Assembly (NCBI GenBank): GCA_021792335.1
Contig: JAJYUW010000006.1
Location: 1-42,583, forward strand
Reading direction: 5' to 3'
DNA: 42,583 bases
DNA from: Pseudomonadota bacterium
Lineage (GTDB): Bacteria; Pseudomonadota; Gammaproteobacteria; Burkholderiales; Sulfuricellaceae
Below, one piece after another: positions 6,803 through 42,357 of the stretch. Positions within the stretch are counted from its first letter, which is position 1. Each line of letters opens with the position of its first letter. The position numbers and the translations under genes are program-made. Below the pieces are notes generated by a model. That model searched no databases. It was not told the origin of the DNA and was given only the letters and a program-made list of their open reading frames with translations.

Positions 6803-6868
6803 CTGCTAACGGCACGTTTTAAAAGTGTTTTGCCAGATATGACAATAGCTTGGCAAGCATTCCGTCCG

Positions 6869-8323: not shown

Positions 8324-8356
8324 GTCGAATAAGCTCAAGAATATGAAAAACCCATA

Positions 8357-8430
8357 ACCGCAAAGGACGCAAAGGACGCAAAGGATATTTGATATTGATT
8401 TCCTTTGCGATCCTTTGCGTCCTTTGCGGT
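8357..8430. repeat. Hairpin-forming repeat between cobD and cobQ
   Basis: Left arm 8357-8385 and right arm 8401-8430 are complementary except for one unpaired base, with a 15-base AT-rich loop. The arms consist of tandem GCAAAGGAC units. It begins 7 bases downstream of the cobD stop (minus strand). A divergent copy of the same GCAAAG motif family lies at 11094-11222. It may act as an mRNA stabiliser or attenuator; there is no U-tract typical of an intrinsic terminator. Confidence 0.85.
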
Positions 8431-8436
8431 AAATAT

Positions 8437-10336: not shown

Positions 10337-10338
10337 GA

Positions 10339-11073
10339 TCAGGCCCCCAGGACAACGGCAACGAGCGCCGCAACTTCGGTCAGCTCGACTGCCGCGCCCA
10401 TCGTGTCGCCGGTCATACCGCCGAGACGGTGCATCATCATCTGGCGCAGGGCCAGCCACGCGATTGCAGCGCCCGCCAGGGCGAACCCGCCCTGGCGGGC
10501 GTCAAAGAATAGGGCGGCGGCCAGGGCTAGAAGCAAAACCAGCCCCGCAGCCGTCCGGGGCAGATGGGCGGAGAGCGCCGACCCCAGTCCGCCGGGCCGG
10601 ACATAGGGCGTGGTCAGCAGCAAGGCCAGCAGCGCCGATCGCCCCAGCAGTGGGGCCAGCAGCAGCGCGGGCCAGGTGCCGGCCTTCGCCAGCGCCGCCA
10701 GGGCGGCGAACTTGAGCAGCAAGGCCAGCGCGATGGCGGAAACGCCCGCCGGTCCGCTGCGCGGGTCCTTCATGATCGCCAGAGTCCGCTCCCTGTCGCC
10801 GCGTCCGCCCACCCAGGCATCGGCGCTGTCGGCCAGGCCGTCGAGGTGCAGGCCGCCGGTGAGGAGAGTCCAGGTTATCGCCAGCAGCGCCGCCTGGAGC
10901 AGCGGATCGGCGTGGCCGACCAGCCGCTGCAAACCCGCCAGCAGCAGCCCGATCAGAAGGCCGATCAAGGGGTAGGCGAGCGCCGACCGGCCCCAATCCG
11001 CCGACCGGGGCTCGAAGCGCAGCGCAACGGGAATGCAGGTCAGAAACTGCAGCGCCAGCAGCAGCGCTTTCAT
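10339..11073 (-). CDS. cobS: Adenosylcobinamide-GDP ribazoletransferase (cobalamin synthase) CobS
   Basis: A 244-residue polytopic membrane enzyme that condenses adenosylcobinamide-GDP with alpha-ribazole(-phosphate) in the penultimate or last step of cobalamin assembly. The diagnostic acidic signature GGLHLDGLADSADAW (about residues 77-91) and IMKDPRSGPAG are present. The rest is alternating hydrophobic helices. It is followed immediately by cbiB and preceded by a repeat region that separates it from cobC. Confidence 0.95.
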   Translation of the reverse strand: MKALLLALQFLTCIPVALRFEPRSADWGRSALAYPLIGLLIGLLLAGLQRLVGHADPLLQAALLAITWTLLTGGLHLDGLADSADAWVGGRGDRERTLAIMKDPRSGPAGVSAIALALLLKFAALAALAKAGTWPALLLAPLLGRSALLALLLTTPYVRPGGLGSALSAHLPRTAAGLVLLLALAAALFFDARQGGFALAGAAIAWLALRQMMMHRLGGMTGDTMGAAVELTEVAALVAVVLGA

Positions 11074-11093
11074 CCTAAAAACCGCAGTTCATT

Positions 11094-11222
11094 AACCGCA
11101 AAGACGCGAAGGCGCAAAGAGAATAAGGACATAAAATCCATCGGGTATTCACCTATCCGGTGACTGGACAGATTCAGATAACACATTGTTTTCCCTTTGC
11201 GTTCTTTGCGCCTTTGCGGTTC
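11094..11222. repeat. Imperfect inverted repeat between cobC and cobS
   Basis: Arms AACCGCAAAGACGCGAAGGC (from 11094) and the complementary stretch ending GCGCCTTTGCGGTT (to 11221) face each other across about 70 bases. The arms are made of the same GCAAAG-type units as the element at 8357-8430. The repeat fills nearly the whole cobC-cobS gap. No ORF is supported inside. Confidence 0.8.
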
Positions 11223-11238
11223 AAATGCTTTTTTAAGT

Positions 11239-11853
11239 TCATGGCTGCGGACTCCCGTGGAACACCAGTTGTGGCAGGGCTTCGGCGCCGCTGCCGAGCA
11301 CCCGGATGCGGCTCATGGCGGCAAAGGGCACTTCCAGCCGGAACATGTTGTGGAGCGGGATTTGCAGGGCATGACAGAGGATCACGCGGTTCACGCCGCC
11401 GTGGGCCACCAGCAGGATTTTCCTGCCTTCATGGCGGCGCAGCAGCTCGCTCCATCCCGCCTCCACCCGCGCCGCAAAAGCTTCCAGCCCCTCCCCGCCG
11501 GGCGGCGTGTTGCGGGCCGGATCGCGCCACAGGCGGTCGAGGCGATCGGGGTCGCTGTGCATCAGTTCCTCGGGGGTGCGCCCCTCCCAATCGCCGAAAC
11601 CGATTTCCCTGAAACGCGGCTCGCTCTCCCAGGGCAGGCCGAGCCTTTCGGCCAGCTCCCCGGCAAACACGGCACAGCGCAACAGCGGAGAGGAAACCAC
11701 GGCTTCCCACTGCTTTTCCCCTTGCACGGCCGCGCGCATCTGCGCCCAGCCCTGACCGCTCAGGGGGTCGTCGGTGTGGCCGCGGAACTTGACCCCGCCC
11801 ACGGGTTCGCCGTGGCGCAGGAGGTCTACCAGCGTGGACGACACTTCAGCCAT
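11239..11853 (-). CDS. cobC: Histidine phosphatase, probable alpha-ribazole phosphatase CobC
   Basis: A 204-residue branch 1 histidine phosphatase. The phosphohistidine motif LLRHGEP is at about residue 13 and the second catalytic histidine is in [19 protein letters not shown] and [13 protein letters not shown] also fit the family. Position among cob genes supports dephosphorylation of alpha-ribazole-5'-phosphate or cobalamin-5'-phosphate. The ATG at 11853 overlaps the cobT end by 8 bases. Family is certain, substrate is from context. Confidence 0.9.
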
Positions 11854-12904
11854 TGTTCTTCCCGGCCACGCCGGCCTCGGCGAAGGTCGCCATCTGGCCG
11901 TGCAGGGCGGCGGCGAGGCGCAGGATGGGCAAGGCCACGGCCGCGCCGCTGCCCTCGCCCAGGCGCAGCCCCAAGTCCACCAGGGGCCGGGCATGCAGGG
12001 CCGCCATCAGGTGCAGGTAGCCCGGCTCGGCCGAAGCATGGCCGAAGAACAGCCAATCCGCGGCATCGGGCCGCAGGCGCAGGGCTGCCAGCGCAGCGGC
12101 GCTGGCGATGAAGCCGTCCACCAGAACGGGCAGGCCGGCCTGGGAGCAGGCGATGTAGGCGCCGGCAAGGGCGGCGATTTCGAAGCCGCCGACATGGCGC
12201 AGCACTTCCAGCGGGGAGGTCATCGCCGCGCGATGCAGCGCCAGGGATGCCTCGATGACGCCCGCCTTGTGCGACACGCCCGCGCTATCCAGCCCCGTGC
12301 CCGGCCCGGCGATCTCGGCAGCGGAACGTGCCAGCAAGACGCAGGCCACGGCCGTGGCGGAGCTGGTGTTGGCGATCCCCATCTCGCCGCCGATGAAGAG
12401 TTGCGCGCCCGCGTCCAGCGCCCGCTTCACGGCATCCCGCCCGGCCTGGAGGGCGGCGGCAAGCTGCGCCGCGGTCATCGCCGGGCGGCGGCGGAAATTG
12501 GCCGTGCCGTTCCCGGCCTTCTGCACGATCACGCCGGGCATGGCTGCGCTGTTCGCCACGCTGCCCACGTCCACCACCTCCAGGGATGCGCCCAGGTTGC
12601 GCGCCAGCACGCTGATTGCAGCGCCTCCGGCAGCGAAGTTGCCGATCATCTGGCCGGTCACGGCCTGAGGAAAGGCCGAAACGCCCTCCACCGCGATGCC
12701 GTGGTCGGCGGCGAACACCGTGATGTGCACCCGGTCGAGGACGGGTTGCTGGGTGCCCTGCATCGCGGCGAGGCGGACGGCGATCTCTTCCAGATAACCC
12801 AGGGAACCGGGCGGTTTGGTCAATTGCCCCTGGCGCGCCCGCGCCGCTTCCAGTACGGCGGCGTCGAGCGCCTGTGCCGGTGTTTCCAGCCACTTGAAAC
12901 TCAT
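11846..12904 (-). CDS. cobT: Nicotinate-nucleotide--dimethylbenzimidazole phosphoribosyltransferase CobT
   Basis: A 352-residue enzyme that activates the lower-ligand base to alpha-ribazole phosphate. Key stretches are TKPPGSLG (about residues 32-39), [30 protein letters not shown], and the C-terminal [17 protein letters not shown] with the catalytic glutamate. The start ATG overlaps the cobU stop by 4 bases. It is intact although the neighbouring base-synthesis gene (bluB) appears destroyed, so its base must be imported or made elsewhere. Confidence 0.95.
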
Positions 12905-13416
12905 AGCGTGTTTCCTTTCAAAATTAGCGGCAGGCCCGCCGCCACCAGGCTTACCCGGTCGCATCGCTGCGCCAGGTCCTGATGCAGGCGCCCCGCCTCG
13001 TCACAATAGCGCCGGGTCAGTTCCCCCAGCGGGACTATCCCCATGCCCACCTCGTTGCTCACCAGGATGACCCGGCCAGGCAGACCGGGCAGCGCCTCCA
13101 GCAGGGCGAACCGTTCCTGTTGAAACAGCGCCTCGTCAGCGATCACGTTGTTCAGCCACAGGGTGAGACAGTCTACCAGCAGGCAGCGGTCCGAAGCCGC
13201 CGCGCCCCGAAGCGCGGCAGCCAAGCGCAGCGGCTCCTCCACCAGTTCCCACCTTGCCGGACGGCGCGACCGGTGGTGGGCGATGCGCTCCGCCATTTCA
13301 GCATCGCCTGCCGTTGCCGTGGCGATGTAGACAACATCAAGCCCGCTTTCTGCGGCGAGGCGCTCCGCCAGGGCGCTCTTGCCGGAGCGGGCGCCGCCGA
13401 GTATCAGTTCCTTCAT
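12901..13416 (-). CDS. cobU: Adenosylcobinamide kinase/guanylyltransferase CobU
   Basis: A 171-residue bifunctional enzyme that phosphorylates adenosylcobinamide and transfers GMP to it. The P-loop [12 protein letters not shown] begins at residue 5. The guanylylated histidine lies in [14 protein letters not shown] and the late motif [11 protein letters not shown] is present. Length is normal. Its ATG overlaps the stop of the upstream cobB/bluB remnant (ATGA), which shows that the deletion left the operon's coupling intact. Confidence 0.95.
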
Positions 13417-13691
13417 GCCGGATTCCCCCAGGCATCGGAAAACACCATCTCTTCCAGCTTGCGCTGCAGGGTGTCCGGATCTACCGGGCCGGGCCGGAAA
13501 TGGCGCATGTCGCGGCGCTCGGCGATGGCGCGATAAACGGCGGCGCGGTCGGCCTCGCTGTAGCGGTGATCGTCCTGACTCAATGGCAGGAACAACCCCG
13601 CCGCCGCTGCCGGGTTGGAGGGCAAATGGCAGCGTCCACACGAGGCGGAAGCGCTGACGAACAGGGCCGGGCAGCGGCGCACAGCCATCAC
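13413..13691 (-). pseudogene. Chimeric cobB/bluB remnant
   Basis: A 92-codon ORF that appears to be the residue of two collapsed genes. Residues about 6-16 (RCPALFVSASA) resemble the start of CobB/CbiA (typically CPALFVSAPASGQGKTT), but the P-loop is lost. Residues about 43-76 (RYSEADRAAVYRAIAERRD, then MRHFRPGPVDPDTL) match the N-terminus of BluB, the flavin enzyme that makes 5,6-dimethylbenzimidazole. The remaining ~150 residues, including the flavin site, are missing; the frame ends in an unrelated tail DAWGNPA. It begins over the cobO stop and ends over the cobU start. It could encode a short nonfunctional peptide. BluB similarity is clear by eye; the CobB part is less certain. Confidence 0.7.
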
Positions 13692-15063: not shown

Positions 15064-16896
15064 TTATTTTGCAGGTTGATAACGCAGGGTCACGAACAGG
15101 CTACGACGAGGCTGATTGTAGAGATATACCGTCTCGTAGTCCCTGTCAAACAGGTTCTCGACCCGGGCCTGAAGACGCAAGTCCCTGGCCAGCCGGTATT
15201 CGGCGCGCAAATCCACCAGGCCGTAGCCGGGCAGCTTGACGGTATTGGCCAGGTTGTCATAGCGCCGTCCCTCGGCCCGCAGGGTGGTACCCATCCGGTA
15301 GGGGCCGAAATCCCGGTCGAGATCCAGGCGCACGCTCTGTTCCGCGCGACGGTTCAGCAGCTTGCCGTAATTGGCGGTGTTGGAGCGGTTTTCCGGGTCT
15401 TGCAGGGTGAGGTTCAGGCGGGTGTCCCAATCTGCCAGACGCAACGAGGAGATGGCCTCCAGACCGCGAATGCGGGCAGAAGCATTCACCGGATTGGTGA
15501 CGCCGTCGAAGCCGATGAGATCGGTCACCCGCGTCTCGAAAGCATTGAGCGACCAACGGCCCGCGCCGGCCTTGCCGCTGAGTCCCGCTTCCAGGCTACG
15601 CGAGTGTTCCGGCTTGAGATTGGGGTTGCCGAAACCGGGGTAGTACAACTGGTTGAAGGTCGGCGCCTTGAAGGCCGTGCCGTAGGCCAGTGTCACGCGC
15701 AGATCGTCCGCCAGCGCCCTACCCCAGGCGGCGTTGCCGGTGGTGTAGGCGCCGAACTGGCTGTTGTCGTCCCGGCGCAGGGAGAACTGGAAATCCTGCT
15801 TGCCCGCCCGGCCCTGGTATTGGGCGAACAGCCCGGTGGTGTCGCGGCTCGTCACGGTATAGGCCGTGGTGCTGGAAACCGCATCTTCCTGGCGATCCAG
15901 GCCCAGGGTGAAGAGGTGGTCGGGTGCCAGGGCCAGGTCGTTTTGCCAGGACAGGGTGTTGCGGCGGGTGTTGAAGCGGCTCTTGAAGACGCCGTTGAGG
16001 AAATTGTCCGAATCATCGTCGCCCTGCCCGGCGGCCAGCTTCAAACTCCACAGCTCGCTGGCCTGGTGCTTCAGGCTGAGGCCGGCAGCCTGCTGCACGG
16101 ACGTGCTCTGGTTCTGGGAGCTGCCGTCGAAATCGTTGTGGCCCTGGGCGCGCAGCAGGTGGAAGTCGACTTCGCTGCCGGGCTGGAAACGGTAGCCTGC
16201 GCGCAAATTAAGGCTGGTGTTGCGGTAGCCGTCCTTGTCCGGTTCGATGGTATAGCAACCCGCCTTCAACGAGCCTTTGCAGGCATTGAAGCCATCCGTT
16301 TCCAGCTGGCTCAGCCCCAGGTTGAACCAGCTATTTTCTCCGCCGCCGGAAAGATGCGCCGTAGCCTGCCGGGTGTTGTAACTGCCCAGCATGACGCTGG
16401 CGGAAGGCATCAATGCGCCGCCGCCCTTGCGGGTGAAAATCTGGATTACGCCGCCGATGGCCTCGGAGCCGTAAAGGCTGGAACGCGGGCCGCGCACCAC
16501 CTCGATGCGCTCGATCTGTTCCACGGGGAAATCCTGGAACGCGGCGGTTCCCAAGGTAGCCGAGCCCACCTTGACGCCGTCGACCAGCACCACCACATGG
16601 TCGGAGTTGGTGCCGCGCAACAAAACCGAGGTGGCCTTGCCCGCGCCGCCGTTGTTGGCGATGGACACGCCCGCCAGTCCTTGCAGCAAATCCTGCACCG
16701 AGGTGGCCTGGCTGCGTTCGATGTCGCGGCGCGTGATGACCGTGGTGGCAGCCAGGGTCTCGTCGGCGGTTCGCGCCGTGCGTGTGGCCGTGACGACGAT
16801 TTCATCACCGCGGTAAAGTGGAACTTCTTCGGCGGAAGCCGCGGGCGCCAGAATGGCAAGAGAGATCAGACTAAACTTGAAGGGGGATTTCATCAT
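15064..16896 (-). CDS. btuB: TonB-dependent vitamin B12 receptor BtuB
   Basis: A 610-residue outer-membrane receptor for cobalamin. An N-terminal signal peptide (MMKSPFKFSLISLAILAPAASA) precedes the TonB box region DEIVVTATRTA. The plug domain follows, with VLLRGTNSDHVVVLVDGVK and IEVVRGPRSSLYGSEAIGGVI. The barrel ends with aromatic-rich strands (ETVYLYNQPRRSLFVTLRYQ). The start pair ATGATG at 16896/16893 has GGAAAA upstream; an ATG at 16905 is also in frame. Expression should fall when B12 is abundant, through the riboswitch at 17016-17201. Confidence 0.95.
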   Translation of the reverse strand: MMKSPFKFSLISLAILAPAASAEEVPLYRGDEIVVTATRTARTADETLAATTVITRRDIERSQATSVQDLLQGLAGVSIANNGGAGKATSVLLRGTNSDHVVVLVDGVKVGSATLGTAAFQDFPVEQIERIEVVRGPRSSLYGSEAIGGVIQIFTRKGGGALMPSASVMLGSYNTRQATAHLSGGGENSWFNLGLSQLETDGFNACKGSLKAGCYTIEPDKDGYRNTSLNLRAGYRFQPGSEVDFHLLRAQGHNDFDGSSQNQSTSVQQAAGLSLKHQASELWSLKLAAGQGDDDSDNFLNGVFKSRFNTRRNTLSWQNDLALAPDHLFTLGLDRQEDAVSSTTAYTVTSRDTTGLFAQYQGRAGKQDFQFSLRRDDNSQFGAYTTGNAAWGRALADDLRVTLAYGTAFKAPTFNQLYYPGFGNPNLKPEHSRSLEAGLSGKAGAGRWSLNAFETRVTDLIGFDGVTNPVNASARIRGLEAISSLRLADWDTRLNLTLQDPENRSNTANYGKLLNRRAEQSVRLDLDRDFGPYRMGTTLRAEGRRYDNLANTVKLPGYGLVDLRAEYRLARDLRLQARVENLFDRDYETVYLYNQPRRSLFVTLRYQPAK

Positions 16897-17015
16897 ATTT
16901 TCCATCGTTCGGCATGCGACCCCGCATGTCGTGGATTCAATCAATGGAAACACCGCGGGAATGGCGCAAAACTGCCACTTCGGCTACCGTCACCCCGCGG
17001 CATTTCCGTACTTTA

Positions 17016-28222: not shown

Positions 28223-29131
28223 TCACTCAGGCGATGCGAAATATGCTTTGAAGCGCGGATAAAGCGCCGAGGTCTCCTTGGCAACACTCAAGGCAACCCC
28301 CCGCGGCTGCAAGACAAGCCGGTCGAAGATGTCGAGAATCGCGCTGATGGTCACCTCGCCATGCGCAGGATTGTTGGTTTTGTGGATGGCCCCTGACTGA
28401 TATTCGGGGGGGATACACAGATTGGGCGGGGCAAGGAATTCATCAGCCCTGAAAAAATAATTCGTATTGTTCAGGTCCACCCCGCACAGAACGATGTTTT
28501 TGTAGCCCGCCCGGACGGCCAGGTTGATGGCAAAGAACAAGGTGGCTCTTTTTTTCGGAATCGCCCAGTGGCGCCTCCCCGTGAAGACACCGGCACGACT
28601 CAGGCTGATCACGGAGCGGGTGAAATCCTGCAGAGTGTCCCCGGGAATTTCAGCGTCCCAAACAAGATGGATGGCTTCTTTTATATGGCCTGGGAGCGCA
28701 CTGACAGCGTCATTTATTGTGCTCTTGTCAAACCTCTCCGCATCCTTCAAATAAATGCACGATTTTGACGCAAGGTCCGTTCGTGCCACAAGATTCTTCG
28801 TGATGCATGCCAAATCCCAATCGTATTTGGTGAGTTCGAAGATGTAATGCGTCGGTACGAACGGGTGCAGTATCCAATAGTTGAATCCCAGGGAATCATG
28901 ATCAGCAATCGTTTGCCATTCCTCGCTCGTATAAGTGAGCACAGAAGAGCCACTGCCTAGAATAAACAGCGTGTCCGAGGATTTTTTGTGGCGCAGCGGG
29001 TTGAAATCCAAGCGTGGGAGGCGCTGCTCATGAACAACCGAATCAAGTTTCCGGTACGAGCGCAGGGATTTATTCAGAAATCGAACCCACGGCGGCAACA
29101 GCATACGCCGCGCTGTTTTTACGAATATCAT
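28223..29131 (-). CDS. Sialyltransferase-like (GT42/MptE-like fold) protein
   Basis: A 302-residue protein, last in the ulosonic-acid operon. A Rossmann-like opening SSDTLFILGSGSSVLTY (about residue 51) and the later ATLFFAINLAVRAGYKNIVLCGVDLNNTNYFF recall the NGPSL and AIxLGYKxIYLxGID motifs of GT42 CMP-sialic acid transferases and related MptE/DUF115 proteins. It has no signal peptide or membrane helix; a basic N-terminus could bind membrane. By position it is the natural candidate to use the CMP-sugar made by the operon. This is a fold-level guess, not a confident family hit. The ATG at 29131 follows the SDR stop by 22 bases. Confidence 0.6.
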   Translation of the reverse strand: MIFVKTARRMLLPPWVRFLNKSLRSYRKLDSVVHEQRLPRLDFNPLRHKKSSDTLFILGSGSSVLTYTSEEWQTIADHDSLGFNYWILHPFVPTHYIFELTKYDWDLACITKNLVARTDLASKSCIYLKDAERFDKSTINDAVSALPGHIKEAIHLVWDAEIPGDTLQDFTRSVISLSRAGVFTGRRHWAIPKKRATLFFAINLAVRAGYKNIVLCGVDLNNTNYFFRADEFLAPPNLCIPPEYQSGAIHKTNNPAHGEVTISAILDIFDRLVLQPRGVALSVAKETSALYPRFKAYFASPE

Positions 29132-29153
29132 GTGAGAGCGTTTGCGGGGCGAC

Positions 29154-29981
29154 CTACCAGGCGCTTCTGCCGCCGTCTGCTGCCAGCACCGCACCATTCA
29201 CATAGCTGGACGCCGCGCTGAGCAGAAACAGCAACGTGCCCTGATACTCGTCCGGCCTGGCTAGGCGGCCCATGGGAATGCGGCTGGAAACTTCCTGGAG
29301 GAAAGCCGGATTCTGGTTATTTTCCACCCCGCCCGGGCACAGCGCGTTGCAGCGTACGCTACGGTCAGCCCAGTAGGTTGCCAGATAGCGTGTGAGACCG
29401 ATCAGGCCGGTCTTGACCACGGAGTAGGTGACCGGCTTCACCGGCTGCTGGTCATCCGGGAGGCCGGTCTTGCGATACAGGCGCTGGTCCGGGGCGATCA
29501 GGCCCAAGTCCGATGAAATGTTGACGATGCTGCCGCCTTGCGGGTTGCGGCTGATTGCCGTGCCGTAATGTTTGGCGCAGAGGAAAGCGCCAGTCAGGCC
29601 AACCGCCACGTCGGCCTGCCACACTTCCAGAGGAAAGTTCTCCAGCCGGGAAAATTTCTTGCTGCCGTCCCCTTCCACCTTGGGATTGTTCGCTGCGTTA
29701 TTGACCAGGCCGTCGATGCGGCCGTGCCGTGCCAGAATCGCAGCACAGTTCGCCTCGATTTCCGCCTCCTGGGTGATATCCACCGCCCAGCCGCTGGCCG
29801 GGACACCGTATTGGGCAGCCAGGTCGGCGGCCATTTGCGCCACGGGTTGGGCATGGAGATCCAGCAACACCGGCGTGCCGCCCGCCCGCGCCACCGCTTC
29901 GGCATGCTGGCGGCCAAGCAGGCCGGCCGCCCCGGTGATGACGACCACTTGAGACTTCAATGAGAACAGGGCATCGTTCAT
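29154..29981 (-). CDS. Short-chain dehydrogenase/reductase (operon gene 7)
   Basis: A 275-residue classical SDR. The cofactor motif is VVITGAAGLLGRQHA (about residues 11-25). LVNNAANNP, NISSDLGLI and the catalytic Y-x-x-x-K in TYSVVKTGLIGLTRYLA are visible, as is the C-terminal VLAADGGRSAW. It resembles the oxidoreductases encoded with neuB-type genes, such as PtmA of Campylobacter flagellin glycosylation loci. It starts 16 bases after the second SDR. The substrate is unknown; a sugar or ulosonic acid oxidation or reduction is inferred from the cluster. Confidence 0.85.
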   Translation of the reverse strand: MNDALFSLKSQVVVITGAAGLLGRQHAEAVARAGGTPVLLDLHAQPVAQMAADLAAQYGVPASGWAVDITQEAEIEANCAAILARHGRIDGLVNNAANNPKVEGDGSKKFSRLENFPLEVWQADVAVGLTGAFLCAKHYGTAISRNPQGGSIVNISSDLGLIAPDQRLYRKTGLPDDQQPVKPVTYSVVKTGLIGLTRYLATYWADRSVRCNALCPGGVENNQNPAFLQEVSSRIPMGRLARPDEYQGTLLFLLSAASSYVNGAVLAADGGRSAW

Positions 29982-29997
29982 TTGGGTAATATCTCCT

Positions 29998-30771
29998 TCA
30001 AAACAGACTGACAGTCTGCCCACCATCCACCACCAGGCAGGCACCGGTGATAAAACTGGCGCGGGCGGAACAGAGGAAGACAGCCGCATCGGCCATTTCC
30101 TCTGGCGTGCCGAATCGCCGCATGGGAACAGTGGCCTCGATCAACGCGTCCACGCGCCCGGCATCCGATCGTATCTTTGCGTCCCAACTGCCGCCCGGAA
30201 AATAGACATTGCCGGGGGCAAGGCAGTTGACCCGCACCCGCGGCGCAAGTTTGCGGGCCAGTTGCTTGGATAGGGCGACCAAAGCGGTCTTGGCCACCGA
30301 GTAATCGGTCGGGGCGCCGATCGCCTCCAGGCCCGCAATTGAGGAAACGAACAACAGGCAGCCCTGGCTTTCTTCCAGCAGGGGCAAGGTGGCGCGGGCT
30401 GTCTGCTCAGCCGTGGCGAAGTTGGAGCGCCAGGTTTGTGCAAAGCGGTCTGCGTCCGGCATGGCATCCGGTACGCTGCGGCCATCGCCCACGTTGGCGA
30501 TGGCAATATCCAGACCGTCCCAGGCGGTCTGAAGCCGGTTCAGAATACCGGGCCAGGCATCCGCATCGGAACAATCACAGGGAAGGGCCAGCACCCGGTT
30601 CTGGCCATGCTGCGCAGCAAGACGTTCTGCCGTTTCCAGCAGGGGCCCGGCCGAGCGTGCCAGTATGGCGACCCGCGCACCCTCCCGGAGAAACCCCTCG
30701 GCAATGGCAAGGCCGATGCCGCGCGAAGCACCCGTGATCAGGACGCGCTTGTCAGTAAGATCGAGGTTCAA
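29998..30771 (-). CDS. Short-chain dehydrogenase/reductase (operon gene 6)
   Basis: A 257-residue classical SDR. VLITGASRGIGLAIAEGFL binds the cofactor. IAIANVGDG, FVSSIAGLEAIG and the catalytic DYSVAKTALVALSK follow, and CLVVDGGQTVSLF ends the protein. It is distinct in sequence from the neighbouring SDR at 29154, so the pair is not a recent duplication. It lies 51 bases downstream of the TIM-barrel gene. Two dehydrogenases in sequence suggest an oxidation/reduction epimerisation, but this is inference. Confidence 0.85.
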   Translation of the reverse strand: MNLDLTDKRVLITGASRGIGLAIAEGFLREGARVAILARSAGPLLETAERLAAQHGQNRVLALPCDCSDADAWPGILNRLQTAWDGLDIAIANVGDGRSVPDAMPDADRFAQTWRSNFATAEQTARATLPLLEESQGCLLFVSSIAGLEAIGAPTDYSVAKTALVALSKQLARKLAPRVRVNCLAPGNVYFPGGSWDAKIRSDAGRVDALIEATVPMRRFGTPEEMADAAVFLCSARASFITGACLVVDGGQTVSLF

Positions 30772-30822
30772 TGTTTATGCTCTCGATAATCAGGCGGGTT
30801 GACCATTGGTATGCCGTATCGT

Positions 30823-31668
30823 TTATTTCAAATAACGCTGGCGAACCCACTCCAACTGCTGGCGAAACACCGCGACTCCCTCATCATCGCGATAAACCTG
30901 CATGATGAAAGGACCCTTGTAGTCGAAGGGGCGCAGGGCTTCAAAGAACCGATCGAATTGCGTATTTCCGCTCCCCAGCACGACCGAGCCGCCACCGAGC
31001 ACGCGGTCCTTGATGTGGATGTCCGTGATGCGGCCACCATAGCAGGCCAGTTCTTCGGCGGGATCGAAGCCCAGTGCCGCGCTGTTGCCGGTATCGTAGT
31101 TTACCGTCACGCGGCGCGAATCAAAACGGGCAAGCAGCGCTGCGAAGGACTGCGGAGCCAAATCCGTTTCCAGCGACAGGTTGATGGCGGCCGCCTCGGC
31201 CTCGGCCAGCAGCGGCTGCATGGCCGACACGAAGCGATCCTGCGCGGCCTGGTCGCGCATCGAGGATTGATCGACACAGGGGATGACAACATCCGTCAGC
31301 CCCAGCCGTTTCCCGTGAGCCAGCAAGCGCCTGAGAACCCCCTGACTGTGGGCGGCAATCTTTTCGTCAGGGTGGTGCAGCGGCGCTTCCATGAAATAGT
31401 CGGCGCAGACGGTATGTACCTTCACGCCCGTTTCCGCGCTCACGCGCAGGATTTCGTCGGGGCCCTCCGGTCTCAGCAGCGGGTTGGCTTCAGCATCGTT
31501 GAAGTCCAGGATGAACTCGATACACTGCAAGCCCAGTTCCGCCGCCCGTGGAAATTCGTCCTGCCAGTATCCGACAGGGTGTGCCTGATAGCGGCCCTGA
31601 TACTTGGGCAATAACCGGCCTTGCATGACGCCGATGGGGTTGCGATATGCTCCGATGCCTTGGCTCAT
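30823..31668 (-). CDS. TIM-barrel sugar phosphate isomerase/epimerase family protein
   Basis: A 281-residue AP-endonuclease-2-like (xylose isomerase-like) TIM barrel. The opening IGVMQGRLLPKYQGRYQ and EFPRAAELGLQCIEFILDF are typical. Likely metal-site residues lie in CVDQSS, LSLETDL, VNYDTGNSAALG and ITDIHIKDRV (conserved E, D, H). The ATG at 31668 overlaps the SIS gene stop (ATGA). Members isomerise or epimerise keto/aldo sugars or their phosphates. The specific substrate is unknown. Confidence 0.85.
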   Translation of the reverse strand: MSQGIGAYRNPIGVMQGRLLPKYQGRYQAHPVGYWQDEFPRAAELGLQCIEFILDFNDAEANPLLRPEGPDEILRVSAETGVKVHTVCADYFMEAPLHHPDEKIAAHSQGVLRRLLAHGKRLGLTDVVIPCVDQSSMRDQAAQDRFVSAMQPLLAEAEAAAINLSLETDLAPQSFAALLARFDSRRVTVNYDTGNSAALGFDPAEELACYGGRITDIHIKDRVLGGGSVVLGSGNTQFDRFFEALRPFDYKGPFIMQVYRDDEGVAVFRQQLEWVRQRYLK

Positions 31669-32249
31669 GAAGCCTCCCGGCCAAAATAGATGCTCTCCAC
31701 CAATCCGCAAAGAATATGCCCAAGCAGGATGTGCCCCTCCTGTATACGTTCAGTACGGCCGGAGGGCACGTGCAGGCAAGGGCAAACCGCTGCGAGACGG
31801 CCGCCGCTCTCGCCGGTGAAGCCCATGGTTCGGATGGACAACTCCTGCGCCACTTCCACGGCAGCCAGGATGTTGGGGCTGTTTCCGCTGGTCGTGAAAG
31901 GAATGAACACGTCATGGGGTCCCGCCATGGCCCGTAATTCGCGGGCGAACACCTGGTCGTAACCGTAATCGTTGCCGATGGCACTCATGGAAGAACTGTT
32001 GGTGGCCAAGGCAATGGACGGCAGCGGGGCGCGGTCGAACTGGAGGCGGGAGACGAATTCCGCCGCCAGGTGCTGCGCATCGGCAAAGCTGCCGCCATTG
32101 CCGGCGAACAGTATCTTGCCGCCATTGCGCAGCGCATCGAGGCACCATTCGGACAGTTCGGCAATCTGTGCGTGCAACGCGGTATCAAGCAACAAAGCCT
32201 GATGCACAGCGAGGGCATTCTGCAAATCGGTTTGTATCTGCTGTTTCAC
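31665..32249 (-). CDS. SIS domain protein, GmhA-like phosphoheptose isomerase
   Basis: A 194-residue SIS protein closely resembling GmhA, which converts sedoheptulose-7-phosphate to D-glycero-D-manno-heptose-7-phosphate. ILFAGNGGSFADAQHLAAEFVSR (GNGGSxADAQH), TNSSSMSAIGNDYGYDQVFARE and FTTSGNSPNILAA are family motifs. The GTG at 32249 has GGGAG 6 bases upstream. An ATG at 32285, overlapping the aminotransferase stop (ATGA), would add 12 residues. A GmhA paralogue inside a neuB-type operon suggests a heptose-like or ketose phosphate precursor; alternatively it simply supplies core heptose. Confidence 0.87.
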   Translation of the reverse strand: MKQQIQTDLQNALAVHQALLLDTALHAQIAELSEWCLDALRNGGKILFAGNGGSFADAQHLAAEFVSRLQFDRAPLPSIALATNSSSMSAIGNDYGYDQVFARELRAMAGPHDVFIPFTTSGNSPNILAAVEVAQELSIRTMGFTGESGGRLAAVCPCLHVPSGRTERIQEGHILLGHILCGLVESIYFGREAS

Positions 32250-32281
32250 TTGGTCTCCCGGGGCATATGAGTGCCCCAAAA

Positions 32282-33265
32282 TCATTTCTTCTTGAACCGG
32301 TAGGGCGTCGGCGCATCCGAGGAGGATGTCGAATCGACCGCATTCCACGCCTTGATCTGCTGTTCGACATCGACGCCGATGTTCTTCGACCAGCGCGCAA
32401 GAATCGCCTTGAAAGCCGGCCCGACCCGCCCGTCACCTATCGGCAGGCCGTTAAGGTGCGTCACCGGCAACATGCAGAATGGCGTGCCGGTCATAAAGGC
32501 CTCGTCCGCCGTGTAAACATCGTAAGGCTCAATGTTCTTCTCGACCACCGGCATGCCGAGCTGGGTAGCGAGCTCTTCCATGACGTAAGCGCGGGAGATG
32601 CCGCGGAGAATATTGCGCCCCTCGGGAGTGATGACGGCGCCATCCTTGATGATGAAAAAGTTGTCGCCCGTGCCCTCCGCGATGAAACCATCGGGGTCGA
32701 GCAGGAGCGCCCAATTGTCGTCGCCGCTGACATTGGAGGCCTCGATGTTCGCCATCAGGTAATGGATACGGCTGCGGTTCTTGATCTTCGGGTCGAGCAG
32801 GGAACCGGGTATGGCCCGCTGCGAAGTGATGACGGCATTGATGCCGGTGTCGAACAGGTGCCCCATGCCGGCAACCGTCCAGCGCAGAGGAAAGTCTGCA
32901 ATGATGACATTCGGCCCCTTGCGCAACCCCTCGACGCCCTGATAAATACCCAGCGTACCGCGAGAAACATCGATCATCAGACGATGCTCGTCGTCACCCG
33001 AGAACAGAGGATCGTTCGCCTCGATCGTTTCATGGCAGTGCCTCTCCATCTCGTCGATCGTCATTTCCAGCGGGATGTGCAGTATCTTGATGCCCGCATA
33101 AAGCCGCTCGAGGTGCTCGCGCAATTTGAACTGTTTCTTGCCGAACGAACGCGTCATCTCGAACACCATGTCACCGAACATAAGCGCCGAATCATAGACG
33201 GAAATCTTTGCATCAGACTCCGGAACAAGCGCCCCATTCATCCATATCACACGACCGCTAGCCAT
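32282..33265 (-). CDS. Class IV (fold type IV) aminotransferase
   Basis: A 327-residue PLP enzyme of the branched-chain/D-amino-acid aminotransferase and ADC lyase superfamily. ISVYDSALMFGDMVFEMTRSF, FKLREHLERLYAG and the PLP lysine region LLDPKIKNRSRIHYLMANIEA are visible. FIAEGTGDNFFII contains the conserved glutamate, and AFMTGTPFCMLPVT follows. These enzymes normally act on amino or keto acids, not on nucleotide sugars. Its location 12 bases after neuB is therefore notable. Possible roles are supplying an amino acid for glycan decoration or aminating the ulosonic acid keto precursor. Both are inference. Confidence 0.88.
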   Translation of the reverse strand: MASGRVIWMNGALVPESDAKISVYDSALMFGDMVFEMTRSFGKKQFKLREHLERLYAGIKILHIPLEMTIDEMERHCHETIEANDPLFSGDDEHRLMIDVSRGTLGIYQGVEGLRKGPNVIIADFPLRWTVAGMGHLFDTGINAVITSQRAIPGSLLDPKIKNRSRIHYLMANIEASNVSGDDNWALLLDPDGFIAEGTGDNFFIIKDGAVITPEGRNILRGISRAYVMEELATQLGMPVVEKNIEPYDVYTADEAFMTGTPFCMLPVTHLNGLPIGDGRVGPAFKAILARWSKNIGVDVEQQIKAWNAVDSTSSSDAPTPYRFKKK

Positions 33266-33277
33266 CGCCGCCCCCCC

Positions 33278-34135
33278 TCAGTTCCTGAATTCGCTTTCGA
33301 AGGGGATATGGGCGCGCAACTTCTCAGCGATTGGCGCCTCCTTCGGGTTCATTTCAAGACGGCCGTCGCCCATCGCTTTTTCGATCTTGCGCACCGCACC
33401 GACCAGCATGCGGAAGCCTGAGGGCTCCACCGAGGCAGCCTGGTCGGAACCGTACATGGCGCGGTCGAGGGTGATGTGCCGTTCCAGAGAAGTGATGCCG
33501 AGCGCCGCTGCCGCATAGGAAACCGCCAGACCGACCTCGTGTCCGCTGTAGCCGATATCGCAATTGAAGCGCTCTCGCAGGGTCTTGATGCGGTTCAGGT
33601 TGGCATCCTCGTCGTCCATCGGGTAAGTGGAAACGCAGTGCATCAATTCGAAGGGGCAGCCCGCCTCGCGAAAGATAGTGACAGCACGTTCGATATCCGC
33701 CGTTTTACTCATGCCGGTGGAAATGAAGGTGTGCTTCTTCTCTTCCGCCACTTTGCGCAGCAGCGGCTCGTAAACGAGCATGGCGGATGCGATCTTGTTG
33801 TATTTCAGATTGAACTGCCGCAGAAAATCCTGGCTTTCCAGATCCCATGCCGAGGCGAACCATTCGATATCTTTCTCGCGGCAGTAACGGTCTATTTCCC
33901 GGTACTGCTCGATGCCGAATTCCAGGCCCTCCTTCTGCGCCCGCTGTGTCTTGCCCCATGTGCTCTCGCGAGGAGAATCGAGAAATTCCTGGGTATAGAC
34001 GAGATCTATGGTCCGTTTCTGGAACTTGACGGCATCGGCGCCCGCTTCTTTGGCCGCATCGACAAGCTGCCTGGCAATATCGAGGCTGCCATTATGGTTG
34101 ATGCCGATTTCGGCTATGACAAAAATGGCCATCAT
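33278..34135 (-). CDS. NeuB-family ulosonic acid synthase, short form without SAF domain
   Basis: A 285-residue TIM-barrel synthase of the NeuB family, which condenses phosphoenolpyruvate with an aldose (or aldose phosphate) to give a nonulosonic acid. FVIAEIGINHNGSLDIA, AVKFQKR, FASAWDLESQDFL, FISTGMSK, CVSTYPMDD, IGYSGHEVGLA, ERHITLDRAMYGSD and VEPSGF follow the family order. Normal NeuB, LegI and PseI are about 335-350 residues with a C-terminal antifreeze-like (SAF) domain; this one stops right after the barrel. AAGGA precedes the ATG at 34135. The substrate is likely unusual because no NeuC, LegB or PseB gene is nearby. Confidence 0.88.
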   Translation of the reverse strand: MMAIFVIAEIGINHNGSLDIARQLVDAAKEAGADAVKFQKRTIDLVYTQEFLDSPRESTWGKTQRAQKEGLEFGIEQYREIDRYCREKDIEWFASAWDLESQDFLRQFNLKYNKIASAMLVYEPLLRKVAEEKKHTFISTGMSKTADIERAVTIFREAGCPFELMHCVSTYPMDDEDANLNRIKTLRERFNCDIGYSGHEVGLAVSYAAAALGITSLERHITLDRAMYGSDQAASVEPSGFRMLVGAVRKIEKAMGDGRLEMNPKEAPIAEKLRAHIPFESEFRN

Positions 34136-34164
34136 TAATATCCTTCTCTTTTAAGATTTCGGTT

Positions 34165-35361
34165 TCAGGTAGAGGCAGGCCCCAGCAAGGCCTCGGACAG
34201 TTCCTTGATCACGCCCTCCCCACCTCGTGCACGGGTAACGTGTTTCGCAACCGCAAGCACTGCCGGATGCGCGTCGGCTGGCGCGACCGGGAAACCGGCC
34301 AGGCGCATCGCGTCGAGATCGTTGACGTCGTTCCCGACATAGAGCACCCGGTCGAGCGCGACACCCCTGGCTTCGCAACAGGCGACCAGATCGCGTTGCT
34401 TGTCCCCGCTCCCCTGCAGCACTTCCAGCCCCAGCTTCTTAGCCCGCGCAGCAACGACAGAATTGATCTCGGTGCTCAGGATCATCTGCCTCAAACCGGC
34501 CTGGCGCAGCTGAGCGACGCCCCAGCCATCGGCACGGTTGGCGAGCACGCCCTCGCTGCCGTCCTGCAGAACGAGCACGCGATTATCGGTCATCACACCG
34601 TCGAAATCATAGACGATCAAATCGGGTTTAAACGCCGCAACCCCTCCCTCTCTCGCCAGCCAGCCCGCGAGCAGGTGCTTGCGGAAGAAATACTCGCAGA
34701 GTTCGATGTTTTCGACGGTATCGATCTCGAACGATTTCCAGAAGTCCATCGAGTAACGGGCAATCTTGCCGCCCAGCCGGTTGCATGTCTGCCGCAGAAG
34801 CGAGGGCTTGAACACGTAGATCGAGCCATTTTCGAGGTAAAGCGGCTTGCGGTCCTGACGGCGGCCGCGGTTGAACGGATCGAAAGTCTTGCCTTTCAAC
34901 GCGCCATCTTCTTCCTGCCAGGCACAAAAATCGTCCAGCACCGCATCCGAAAAAAGAGAGTCAGCCCCTTGCAAAACAAACGCCGCAACCGCACCGTCGA
35001 TATCCGACGGCTCGCGTAGCGGCGAAGTCGCCTGCAGGAACACGATACGCTCCGGTTCAGTCCCAAGGTCTGCGGCTATCACATCCAAGGCGTGCAACAA
35101 CGCCGATTCCGACGTGGCGGTATCTGTCGAGAGTTCATCCGGCCGCTTGATGATCCTGGCGCCATACTGCGCCGCCACATCGAGAATGACGTCACTATCC
35201 GAGGAAACATAAACATGATCCACCGATTCAGCAGCCCTAGCCTGAAGAATGGACCAAGCCAACAACGGTTTACCGGCGAAATCGATGAGGTTTTTATGGG
35301 GAATGCCCTTGGATCCTCCGCGTGCCAGGATAATAGCGACAGACTCAGTGGGAAAAGGCAT
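34165..35361 (-). CDS. CMP-ulosonate cytidylyltransferase fused to KdsC-like HAD phosphatase
   Basis: A 398-residue two-domain enzyme. Residues about 1-225 form a NeuA-type cytidylyltransferase with IILARGGSKGIPHKNL, SSDSDVI, FLQATSPLREPSDID and FEIDTVENIELCEYFF. Residues about 245-398 form a C0-type HAD phosphatase like KdsC: IVYDFDGVMTDN holds the nucleophile aspartate, and GDKQRDLVA and YVGNDVNDLDAM complete the site. The fusion suggests removal of a phosphate from a NeuB-made ulosonic acid phosphate, then CMP activation. The ATG at 35361 is chosen to match the family start. It is first in the operon. Confidence 0.9.
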   Translation of the reverse strand: MPFPTESVAIILARGGSKGIPHKNLIDFAGKPLLAWSILQARAAESVDHVYVSSDSDVILDVAAQYGARIIKRPDELSTDTATSESALLHALDVIAADLGTEPERIVFLQATSPLREPSDIDGAVAAFVLQGADSLFSDAVLDDFCAWQEEDGALKGKTFDPFNRGRRQDRKPLYLENGSIYVFKPSLLRQTCNRLGGKIARYSMDFWKSFEIDTVENIELCEYFFRKHLLAGWLAREGGVAAFKPDLIVYDFDGVMTDNRVLVLQDGSEGVLANRADGWGVAQLRQAGLRQMILSTEINSVVAARAKKLGLEVLQGSGDKQRDLVACCEARGVALDRVLYVGNDVNDLDAMRLAGFPVAPADAHPAVLAVAKHVTRARGGEGVIKELSEALLGPAST

Positions 35362-38072: not shown

Positions 38073-38321
38073 ATGGTCAGAACTCAGATTTATCTCACGG
38101 AGCAGGAGCAATACGCCTTGCGGGACATTGCCGATAGAACCGGAAAAACCCAGAGCCAGTTGATTCGCGAGGCGATAGATCGGTTGATCGAACAGGTAAG
38201 CGCTAATTCTCGCGCTCAAATCATGGCTGAAGCGGCTGGTATGTGGCAAAGCCGTGCTGATTTGCCGGATTTCGCCGCGCTGCGGCGGGAGGCTGATCGC
38301 ATTGCTCCGGCAGGGGAATAG
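38073..38321 (+). CDS. Ribbon-helix-helix antitoxin (VapB/CopG-like)
   Basis: An 82-residue antitoxin. The N-terminal ribbon-helix-helix DNA-binding unit is MVRTQIYLTEQEQYALRDIADRTGKTQSQLIREAIDRLIEQ (beta strand, then two helices). The C-terminal ~35 residues (AGMWQSRADLPDFAALRREADRI) are the toxin-wrapping tail. AAGGA lies 9 bases before the ATG. It is 3 bases upstream of the PIN-domain toxin gene. Base composition is more AT-rich than the neighbours, consistent with separate acquisition. Confidence 0.9.
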   Translation: MVRTQIYLTEQEQYALRDIADRTGKTQSQLIREAIDRLIEQVSANSRAQIMAEAAGMWQSRADLPDFAALRREADRIAPAGE

Positions 38322-38324
38322 CTT

Positions 38325-38714
38325 TTGGCCGCCGCGCTGTTGTTAGACACCGACTTGTTGATCGACTACCTGAGAGGGCAAGCGGATGCCGTTTCCTTCC
38401 TCAGGCAATCCAGCCAGACTTTACAGGTTTCCAGTGTCACGGTGGCGGAGCTGTATGTGGGGGTGCGTGAGGGACACGAACGCGAAGTTCTCGACCGCTT
38501 TATCTCTCTGCTGGAAGTGATGGACATCAATACCGCCATCGCCGTGCAAGCCGGCCTGTGGCGGCGAAACTACGGTAAAAGCCACGGCACCGGTTTGATG
38601 GATGCCCTGATCGCCGCCACCGCGCATCATAACGGCAGCACCTTGGTCACCCTCAACACCAAGCACTTTCCCATGCTGGAAACAGTGCTGACGCCTTACC
38701 GGAAAAATCAGTAA
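38325..38714 (+). CDS. PIN-domain ribonuclease toxin (VapC)
   Basis: A 129-residue PIN-domain RNase. The acidic site is formed by LLLDTDLLIDYLRG (first Asp), VTVAELYVGV (Glu), and TGLMDALIAATAHHNG (Asp), followed by LVTLNTKHFPML. The start is a TTG at 38325, with GGGGA upstream and 3 bases after the antitoxin stop; a weak start fits toxin under-production. By family it would cleave tRNA or rRNA when free of antitoxin. Confidence 0.9.
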   Translation: MAAALLLDTDLLIDYLRGQADAVSFLRQSSQTLQVSSVTVAELYVGVREGHEREVLDRFISLLEVMDINTAIAVQAGLWRRNYGKSHGTGLMDALIAATAHHNGSTLVTLNTKHFPMLETVLTPYRKNQ

Positions 38715-41193: not shown

Positions 41194-42357
41194 CTACCCA
41201 TCCAATGATGCGCACAATTGCGCCAATTCATTCGCCGGCAAAACCTCTACTTTTTCAGCAATCGGATAGCCCGTTTCAACAGGGGCAACGACATACGCTT
41301 GTTCGAGCTGCAAATCCTTCATCGCGGACCAGAACCCTTTTGACAAAGAGGGCGCGCTGGAAAGTTTGATCTCAAATCCTATTCTTCTCTCGCCACGTTC
41401 CGCCACGACATCCATTTCCGCACCCGTCGCCGTACGGTAAAAAGACAACCTCCACTGCGGCGACAATAACTGCGCAATCTGCTCCAACACCCACCCTTCC
41501 CACGATGGCCCGACGACGGGGTGTCCGGCAAGTTCATCCAGGCTGCGAATTCCGAGTAGCGCATGCAGCAACCCACTGTCGCGCAGATAGATTTTCGGAG
41601 ATTTCACCAAACGCTTGCCTGAATTGACATGTAGCGGGGGCAACCGCCTGACCATATAGGTCGCCTCAAGGATTTCCAGATAATGCTGCACGGTAGGCGC
41701 CGACACGCCGAAACCGGAGGCAAGCCGCGATGCATTCCACATCTGCCCATGCAGATGAGCCAGCATCTGCCAGAAGCGATGCAACGTCGGAGCGGGAATC
41801 CGGATGCCGAAAGCGGGTATATCACGCTCCAAATGCGTGAGGATAAAAGACTCACGCCACGCGAAAGAAGCCTCATCCGATTCGGCCAACCAGCTTAACG
41901 GATACCCGCCACGCAGCCAGAAATCGGCCAGCCCGGCATGTCCTGGCTTAATTTCGCTGACATCGAAAGGCGCCAACTCATGAAAAGAAATTCGACCAGC
42001 CAAGGATTCTGAAGTCTGCCTTAGCAACTGCGGCGAAGCCGAACCCAACAACAGAAACCGTCCAGGACGACGGTTCTCATCGATCAACGCGCGCAAAACG
42101 GGAAACAAGTCAGGCTGGCGTTGAATCTCATCAAGCACAACAAGTTGATCCGCGTGGCGAGACAAAAACAACTCCGGATCAGCCAACTTGGCCAGATCGG
42201 AAGGCCGCTCGAGGTCCAGATACAGGCTATTTGCGTGGCTTGATCCGACAGAACGCGCCAGCGTGGTTTTACCTGCCTGCCGAGGCCCCAAAAGAGCGAC
42301 AGCAGGGAATTGAACCAACGCTTTTTCGATATTTGGAAGAATTCGACGGCTTATCAT
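41194..42357 (-). CDS. AAA+ ATPase with DUF4143 domain
   Basis: A 387-residue orphan ATPase of a widespread family of unknown function. Walker A is GPRQAGKTTLAR near residue 24 and Walker B is LVVLDEIQRQP. LLLGSASPQLL is a sensor-like strand. The C-terminal DUF4143 half holds a winged-helix-like region (NASRLASGFGVSAPTVQHYLEILE). It ends in a PD-(D/E)XK-like strand pattern (GAEMDVVAERGERRIGFEIKL), suggesting a nuclease-like fold. No partner gene is adjacent. It is slightly more AT-rich than the cob region. No function is proposed. Confidence 0.88.
   Translation of the reverse strand: MISRRILPNIEKALVQFPAVALLGPRQAGKTTLARSVGSSHANSLYLDLERPSDLAKLADPELFLSRHADQLVVLDEIQRQPDLFPVLRALIDENRRPGRFLLLGSASPQLLRQTSESLAGRISFHELAPFDVSEIKPGHAGLADFWLRGGYPLSWLAESDEASFAWRESFILTHLERDIPAFGIRIPAPTLHRFWQMLAHLHGQMWNASRLASGFGVSAPTVQHYLEILEATYMVRRLPPLHVNSGKRLVKSPKIYLRDSGLLHALLGIRSLDELAGHPVVGPSWEGWVLEQIAQLLSPQWRLSFYRTATGAEMDVVAERGERRIGFEIKLSSAPSLSKGFWSAMKDLQLEQAYVVAPVETGYPIAEKVEVLPANELAQLCASLDG

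Follow-up and report, generated by a model that had tools for sequence, protein, structure and literature searches.

The DNA analysed here (the window) is a stretch of 42,583 nucleotides from a bacterium of the family Sulfuricellaceae (Pseudomonadota; contig JAJYUW010000006.1 of assembly GCA_021792335.1). It contains an operon of eight genes, all on the minus strand at 28223-35361 (Table 1), for which a non-canonical route to an ulosonic acid activated with cytidine monophosphate (CMP) had been proposed from the sequence (the original prediction). The tight spacing described there was confirmed: from the cytidylyltransferase to the last gene, the genes are separated by 32 and 12 bases, overlap twice by 4 bases, and are then separated by 51, 16 and 22 bases. 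The overlap between the aminotransferase and GmhA-like genes is uncertain, as homologues, compared by eye, begin GmhA about 12 codons later, which corresponds to the GTG at 32249. The first short-chain dehydrogenase/reductase (SDR) gene, SDR1, starts with the TTG at 30771, and its homologue in the locus L006 begins at the equivalent start.

Table 1 Genes of the operon and the basis of their assignment
Gene product	Position	Strand	Family or basis
CMP-ulosonate cytidylyltransferase with fused KdsC-like HAD phosphatase	34165..35361	-	Pfam CTP_transf_3, Hydrolase_3
NeuB-type synthase without SAF domain, NeuB1 clade	33278..34132	-	PF03102, 284 amino acids
Pyridoxal phosphate (PLP) fold-type IV (class IV) aminotransferase	32282..33265	-	PF01063 (Aminotran_4)
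GmhA-like ketose/aldose phosphate isomerase	31665..32285	-	PF13580 (SIS_2)
Xylose-isomerase-like TIM barrel, putative keto-isomerase or epimerase	30823..31668	-	PF01261 (AP_endonuc_2)
SDR oxidoreductase 1 (SDR1)	29998..30771	-	PF13561/PF00106
SDR oxidoreductase 2 (SDR2)	29154..29981	-	PF13561/PF00106
Sialyltransferase-fold protein, probable CMP-ulosonate transferase	28223..29131	-	predicted structure

Pfam agreed with the domains predicted for seven of the genes (CTP_transf_3 with HAD, NeuB, Aminotran_4, SIS_2, AP_endonuc_2 and two SDRs); for SDR2, the top NCBIfam model was NF006619/PRK09186, under its cut-off. With Pfam and NCBIfam, none of the eight proteins was a NeuC-type epimerase, PseB/LegB dehydratase, DegT aminotransferase or acetyltransferase, as had been claimed for this interval. 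The same eight-gene order, which the original prediction proposed to look for elsewhere, is kept in L006 (genome G352) and L007 (genome G350), both from the same order of bacteria. Protein identities between the window and these two operons are 54-89% overall, with 89/86% for NeuB, 86/85% for the aminotransferase and 54/65% for the last gene (L006/L007). L006 carries an extra methyltransferase (Pfam) between GmhA and the TIM barrel, and a second extra gene, methyltransferase-like by eye only, that precedes the last gene. The operon is flanked in the window by genes of the lipopolysaccharide (LPS) type, namely GT9 and GT4 transferases, a Wzy_C/O-antigen-ligase protein and a uridine diphosphate (UDP)-sugar dehydrogenase, as well as an ABC transporter that we take to be of the MsbA type.

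The aminotransferase subfamily and its genomic neighbours

The aminotransferase matched PF01063 with 161.5 bits (cut-off 28.5) and the branched-chain aminotransferase (BCAT) model TIGR01122 with 188.6 bits, under the cut-off of 245.55. To obtain relatives, we scanned 84,980 species genomes, which gave 167, of which the best 80, with 58-86% identity, were returned; three of these loci (L036, L038 and L053) lie on the same contigs as L006, L007 and L023. The PLP-binding Lys162 and Glu197 align with those of BCATs and are kept in 80/80 relatives. Glu93 and Pro262 are likewise present in all 80, whereas BCATs have Tyr and Ala there. Since these two BCAT positions presumably help to bind the amino acid carboxylate, a simple 2-keto acid is unlikely to be the acceptor of the aminotransferase. 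F30 and M37 sit inside the scan patterns and were excluded from the conservation claims.

The enzyme is rare in the class and order of the organism: at E 1e-70 it was found in 1/274 genomes of the class (its own), and at E 1e-50 in 3/250 genomes of the order, its own included. Its relatives are spread over Pseudomonadota (including Betaproteobacteria), Bacteroidota, Bacillota, Verrucomicrobiota, Chloroflexota, Omnitrophota and Patescibacteria-type lineages, and occur also in Prochlorococcus (cyanobacteria), SAR11, Nitrosopumilus (ammonia-oxidising archaea), Methanomicrobiales (methanogens) and others. The 81% identity between the window enzyme and that of Daejeonella sp. H1SJ63 (Bacteroidota; L040) points to horizontal transfer.

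Genes at the loci were called with a home-made caller and labelled by tblastn, without curation; the queries for a third SDR (SDR3), class III aminotransferase, NeuB2, GHMP kinase, radical SAM and small HAD came from the counted loci, and self matches are included. Within 8 kb of the aminotransferase, any NeuB was found in 75/80 loci (the five others being L059, L082, L087, L112 and L114), a CMP transferase of the NeuA or SpsF type in 72/80 and both in 69/80. The nearest NeuB1 or NeuB2 (see below) lies on the strand of the aminotransferase in 70 of 73 cases, at a median distance of 1.1 kb. Less frequent neighbours at the same distance are the TIM barrel (54/80), SDR2 (50/80), SDR1 (48/80) and GmhA (33/80). 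These data are strong evidence for a functional link of the fold-type IV aminotransferase to ulosonic acid synthesis. In a published account, sugar aminotransferases are treated as fold type I (PMC9309667), so that a fold-type IV enzyme acting here would be an unusual sugar enzyme.

The ancestry of the enzyme among BCATs and D-amino-acid aminotransferases would also suit a different explanation, in which the aminotransferase, the SDRs and the TIM barrel build an acyl or side group (a D-amino acid or a hydroxy acid) that decorates an ordinary ulosonic acid. We regard this as quite improbable, because a ligase, carrier protein and acyltransferase are all missing among the eight genes and the residues of the BCAT carboxylate pocket, whose role we presume, are altered.

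NeuB clades, phosphatases and canonical routes

The window NeuB consists of a single PF03102 domain (248.1 bits, cut-off 22.1) in 284 amino acids and has no SAF domain. It scored 258.7 bits with TIGR03569, a test for synthases of N-acetylneuraminic acid (Neu5Ac), and 203.9 bits with the PseI model TIGR03586, in both cases under the cut-off (399.65 and 340.25, respectively). Twelve residues to which we assign NeuB-type active-site roles are kept in 56-58 of 58 sequences. We calculated a tree of 97 out of 99 NeuB sequences, leaving out a 134-amino-acid fragment and a 573-amino-acid row; the groups had been pre-labelled by similarity and length. Three groups were recovered, each on one side of a branch: NeuB1, with 66 SAF-less sequences including the window NeuB (support 99/97); NeuB2, with 15 sequences that have SAF and a C-terminal TIM barrel (support 100/99; domains Pfam-checked in L028 only); and a canonical clade of 16 sequences (support 100/97). 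NeuB1 and NeuB2 are thus separate from the synthases of the Neu, legionaminic acid (Leg) and pseudaminic acid (Pse) type. For NeuB1 rows other than that of the window, the absence of SAF was judged by length, 226-328 versus 332-374 amino acids for canonical rows (the two omitted rows apart). A second NeuB candidate of the window genome, on contig C262, was rejected, as it resembles by eye a 3-deoxy-D-arabino-heptulosonate 7-phosphate synthase.

The two new clades differ in their neighbours. A phosphatase accompanies NeuB1 in 37/60 loci (27 KdsC-like, 10 small HAD-like) and NeuB2 in 0/13 (p 2.7e-5; for the KdsC-like phosphatase alone, p 0.0013), and a CBS-GHMP kinase is found at 13/13 NeuB2 loci versus 2/60 NeuB1 loci. 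The simplest reading of the linkage between NeuB1 and phosphatase is that NeuB1 takes a phosphorylated aldose and that the phosphate is removed from the product later. The aminotransferases of the window and of L040 are 81% identical; as NeuB1 and NeuB2 serve a near-identical aminotransferase, the products of the two types of loci are probably identical or similar.

The phosphatase linkage suits the 9-phosphate of keto-deoxynonulosonic acid (Kdn) equally well. In a Kdn-type pathway, NeuB would join mannose 6-phosphate and phosphoenolpyruvate (PEP), the HAD domain would release Kdn, and GmhA would supply an unrelated heptose; from 5-keto-Kdn or a ketone in the side chain, the SDRs and the aminotransferase would then produce an amino-Kdn, which might even be unacetylated neuraminic acid. 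The fused cytidylyltransferase-HAD protein matched NCBIfam models for PseF (113.8 bits), KdsC (88.2 bits) and, through its HAD domain, KDN-9-phosphatase (NF058599, 80.5 bits, cut-off 180), all under cut-off. Kdn is a branch that does not derive from UDP-N-acetylglucosamine (UDP-GlcNAc) and begins at mannose 6-phosphate (PMC8053191). We nevertheless consider a Kdn-type pathway unlikely, in view of the GmhA gene inside the operon, which is additional to a housekeeping copy, and of the HddA/HddC/GmhB-like genes in the sister variant, both described in the following section.

Alternatively, the product might be Neu5Ac, Leg or Pse of the ordinary kind, the precursor genes being located elsewhere in the genome. 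In the window assembly, which is 74.7% complete, NeuC (TIGR03568) gave 0 matches, PseB (TIGR03589) gave no match at E 1e-30, and the best match of TIGR04180, which we take to be the model of the LegB dehydratase, had 151.9 bits, under the cut-off of 475. The DegT family (PF01041) gave four weak matches in this assembly (24-32 bits) and a strong one (390.5 bits). The latter resembles ArnB/PseC under cut-offs and, having an Arnt_C protein and a GT2 nearby, is probably aminoarabinose-type. We extended the search to 36 hand-picked carrier genomes (G000, G350, G352, G550, G658 and those of 31 of the 80 loci), using the PseB and LegB models in place of PF02719, which matches 36/36 genomes and is too broad as a test. 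Over curated cut-offs, NeuC was found in 9, PseB in 10 and LegB in 4 of them; 16 have any of these genes and 20 none. The original prediction had raised the question of whether genomes with the operon lack canonical precursor genes throughout: none over cut-off was found for the window and 19 others, and the 16 remaining carriers have at least one.

Some of these canonical genes share the contig of the operon. From 10 canonical loci fetched by NeuC, LegB and PseB matches, 7 gave a NeuB, one a fragment that was left out, and the six treeable sequences all fell into the canonical clade. Among them, G350 and G352 have their canonical NeuB genes on other contigs (L119, L123). Therefore, the canonical loci sampled in this way look like separate pathways. 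The occurrence of NeuC, PseB or LegB in 16/36 carrier genomes speaks for an ordinary product; the lack of any such gene detected in the window assembly and the position of its NeuB apart from the six canonical synthases speak against it, and we know of no role for a class IV aminotransferase, GmhA or a phosphatase in the Neu5Ac, Leg and Pse routes. Taken together, we judge an ordinary product to be very improbable.

GmhA, proposed ketone formation and the last gene

The operon GmhA had the phosphoheptose isomerases 2xbl/2x3y as its best PDB matches (E about 1e-56). It scored 160.7 bits with TIGR00441, under the cut-off of 209.45, which the housekeeping copy does not reach either (190.5 bits). 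The residues H72, E76, Q182 and H190, to which we assign zinc-binding and active-site roles, are kept in 32/32 sequences. A second gmhA lies on contig C168 of the window genome and adjoins rfaE domain II, as is also the case in G350 and G352, which identifies the operon gene as an extra copy.

At NeuB2 loci, the kinase, nucleotidyltransferase and HAD proteins (examined in L028, L040 and L048) best match HddA, HddC and GmhB, the enzymes of GDP-heptose synthesis. Two of the kinases scored 250.8 and 235.8 bits with HddA (cut-off 600), the HddC match was under cut-off, and one of two GmhB-like HADs was over the TIGR00213 cut-off. Of the 13 NeuB2 loci, all 13 have the kinase nearby, 11 the nucleotidyltransferase, 8 GmhA and 4 GmhB. 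In taxa that we took as lacking LPS (archaea, Clostridia, Chloroflexota, Actinomycetota and Patescibacteria), GmhA is near 9/14 loci versus 24/66 others (one-sided p 0.05, post hoc). A phosphorylated, perhaps heptose-derived precursor, as envisaged in the original prediction, is thus probable given the phosphatase linkage, the extra GmhA and the HddA/HddC/GmhB-like sister genes. With a heptose as precursor, the acid formed by NeuB would have ten carbons. We assume that loci without their own GmhA or phosphatase may use the housekeeping enzymes.

A later step would be the formation of a ketone. In the TIM barrel, the metal-type residues E170, D195 and H221 are kept in 53/53 sequences and Q260 in 51/53 (numbered from 31677 as scanned). 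Sugar 3-epimerases presumably have Glu, a fourth metal residue, at the position of Q260; with Gln in its place, the reaction is probably not an ordinary 3-epimerisation. A search with the TIM barrel found 12/398 Pseudomonadota genomes, including that of the window, and 3/296 genomes in a Bacteroidota sample, one of them being the centre itself. Comparing 13 TIM-anchored Pseudomonadota stretches, we found the slot beside NeuA/NeuB to be occupied by the class IV aminotransferase in 2, by a third SDR in 5, and by a class III aminotransferase with a VOC protein and a methyltransferase in 3; the remaining 3 have none of them, and the alternatives never occur together in one stretch. The NeuA/TIM/SDR-like clusters in which the class III aminotransferase, VOC (glyoxalase-like) and methyltransferase genes replace the class IV enzyme are L025, L032 and L034.

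A radical SAM/SPASM gene was present in 9/26 loci without the TIM barrel and in 0/54 with it. In 11 of the 26, the sequence extends less than 2.5 kb beyond the aminotransferase in one direction, so that these loci may be cut; of the other 15, 8 have the radical SAM gene. This gene adjoins the aminotransferase in L072, L080, L084, L089 and L095, is one gene away in L092 and L104, and lies within the locus in L065 and L081. Such mutual avoidance is expected if either the radical SAM or the TIM-barrel protein can supply the ketone, and the patterns agree with a ketone that stems from SDR/TIM or radical SAM enzymes and is afterwards aminated or reduced.

The last gene had no Pfam or NCBIfam family match at E 0.001, and no GT42 sequence match was obtained. 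Its AlphaFold model (pLDDT 84.8, from a 5-sequence alignment) gave Cst-I as the best Foldseek match (E 4.9e-6, TM 0.45/0.48) and aligned with the GT42 enzyme Cst-II with Z 11.9 over 194 residues at an rmsd of 3.9. The label "sialyltransferase-like" of the original prediction therefore has no counterpart among sequence families and finds one in the sialyltransferase-type fold of the predicted structure. Since Maf is tied (Z 11.2) and HPPK close behind (Z 10.9), the fold alone leaves the donor unsettled; the predicted fold together with the CMP transferase of the operon supports a function as a putative CMP-ulosonate transferase. Homologues of the last gene are near 4/80 loci. In its stead, 16/80 loci have nearby a LIC12162-type transferase, a 587-amino-acid neighbour protein of which the two members tested were assigned to the LIC12162 family by NCBIfam, both over cut-off.

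The proposed route and known pathways

We consider it likely that the eight genes serve to synthesise an amino-ulosonic acid, activate it with CMP and transfer it, along a route that differs from those of Neu5Ac, Leg, Pse and Kdn. The type of route is well supported, and the original prediction of a non-canonical CMP-ulosonate route in an LPS gene region gains support from the separate NeuB clades, the phosphatase linkage and the sialyltransferase-type fold. For the route itself, we infer the substrates, the order of the steps from HAD to cytidylyltransferase, the site of amination, the carbon number, the product and the LPS acceptor as follows. The extra GmhA-like isomerase would start from the phosphate of a ketose, of which sedoheptulose 7-phosphate is the most likely, and convert it to an aldose phosphate, which the SAF-less NeuB would join with PEP. 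The HAD domain would then take off the phosphate, the SDR and TIM-barrel enzymes would oxidise and isomerise or epimerise a carbon to give a ketone, and the fold-type IV aminotransferase would aminate it. Finally, the cytidylyltransferase would form the CMP sugar, and the sialyltransferase-fold protein would attach the sugar to LPS. The operon is widespread, and its uncharacterised pathway is probably derived from heptose 7-phosphate, aminated and feeding LPS. The fullest version, an aminated ten-carbon 3-deoxy-dec-2-ulosonic acid formed from heptose 7-phosphate and PEP, with a sugar-acting fold-type IV aminotransferase and gene transfer between Bacteria and Archaea, is tentative and more doubtful than not. 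To our knowledge, this would be the first sugar role of a fold-type IV transaminase.

Several observations weigh against this proposal. All members are known so far from genes alone. An N-acyltransferase is absent from the eight proteins of the operon, unlike in known amino-nonulosonic acid (NulO) routes. A phosphatase is near only 37/60 NeuB1 loci, and the Pfam match of the small HAD is under cut-off. GmhA is near only 33/80 relatives and is weakly enriched in the taxa taken as lacking LPS. With the TIM barrel, SDR1 and SDR2 near 54, 48 and 50 of 80 loci, the SDR/TIM step is not universal. The exclusion within the slot is loose among the 80 loci, of which 2 (L063, L081) have the class III aminotransferase nearby and 8 the third SDR, 3 of these with the TIM barrel. 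As to canonical routes, 16/36 carrier genomes hold a precursor gene, the negative results for the window genome rest on an assembly that is 74.7% complete, and a NeuC label is within 8 kb of the aminotransferase in 1/80 loci and a DegT label in 14/80.

The operon shares with the Leg, Pse and Neu5Ac pathways a NeuB-family synthase, activation by CTP_transf_3 and a CMP-sugar transferase; unlike them, it has no nucleoside diphosphate-sugar dehydratase, DegT aminotransferase, acetyltransferase or NeuC, and its NeuB belongs to a separate clade. With the Kdn pathway (KDN-9-P synthase, phosphatase and CMP-Kdn synthetase) it has in common a HAD phosphatase, CMP activation and, in the reading proposed here, a phosphorylated aldose; the two SDRs, the TIM barrel, the class IV aminotransferase and the extra GmhA go beyond that pathway. 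In the KdnAB route of Shewanella to 8-amino-Kdo, an ulosonic acid (Kdo) is oxidised and then transaminated by a DegT-type aminotransferase. This sequence of oxidation and transamination is like the one proposed here, whereas the Kdo substrate and the DegT-type enzyme are not. EpaA/EpaB and AciE epimerise NulOs (pseudaminic or acinetaminic acid), and one such oxidoreductase is fused to CTP_transf_3 (PMC12053666); they resemble the operon in being NulO-acting oxidoreductases and differ in having no aminotransferase and in their pseudaminic or acinetaminic substrate.

The closest published counterpart that we found is a NulO locus of Leptospira interrogans with a synthase (YP_002104), an aminotransferase (YP_002103) and a CMP synthetase (YP_002102); the synthase has a C-terminal endonuclease-like domain that its authors read as a phosphatase, and a phosphorylated intermediate was proposed (PMC3438082). 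Judged by these descriptions, the locus is like the window operon in its NeuB-type synthase, extra aminotransferase and CMP synthetase, and the LIC12162-type transferases near 16/80 loci are a further point of resemblance; the window NeuB differs in being SAF-less and unfused, with the phosphatase being a KdsC-like HAD fused to the cytidylyltransferase. L028 encodes at 6309-8216 a NeuB2-SAF protein fused to a PF01261 xylose-isomerase-like TIM barrel, which may, again by description, share its architecture with the Leptospira synthase. As the like domain in L028 is a PF01261 TIM barrel, the phosphatase reading of the Leptospira domain may merit a second look. Among the articles listed in our literature searches, which most subscription journals lay outside, we found no description of a cluster like that of the window.

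Near 8/80 loci (within 8 kb), an HpaI-type aldolase adjoins a KdsB-like CMP transferase, often with a 2-hydroxyacid dehydrogenase (e.g. L040 16469-17988, L056 15985-18188 and L039 14192-16753). The L056 aldolase is under the TIGR02311 cut-off, and the L040 KdsB-like protein is over subfamily cut-offs. This pair is perhaps a second CMP-ulosonate route, via a pyruvate aldolase. Elsewhere in the window, cobalamin synthesis genes (CobQ/CbiA-like, CobS, DBI_PRT and CobU) lie at 6869-13641 and 15064-16953 near a TonB-dependent receptor, a small open reading frame with no Pfam match is followed by a PIN-domain protein in a VapBC-type toxin-antitoxin-like arrangement (38073-38714), and an AAA_14/DUF4143 protein is encoded at the window end (41194-42357).

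Sialic-acid-like sugars affect the charge of the cell surface, the binding of phages and recognition by the immune system. Their presence is predicted in genome surveys from the genes of the Neu, Leg, Pse and Kdn routes; given two more synthase clades with their own aminotransferase, these predictions would overlook a common surface sugar. If the ten-carbon reading is true, such surveys miss this class of sugars, as they assume nine carbons and an origin from UDP-GlcNAc or mannose. The gene set is now defined and can be tested with purified enzymes.

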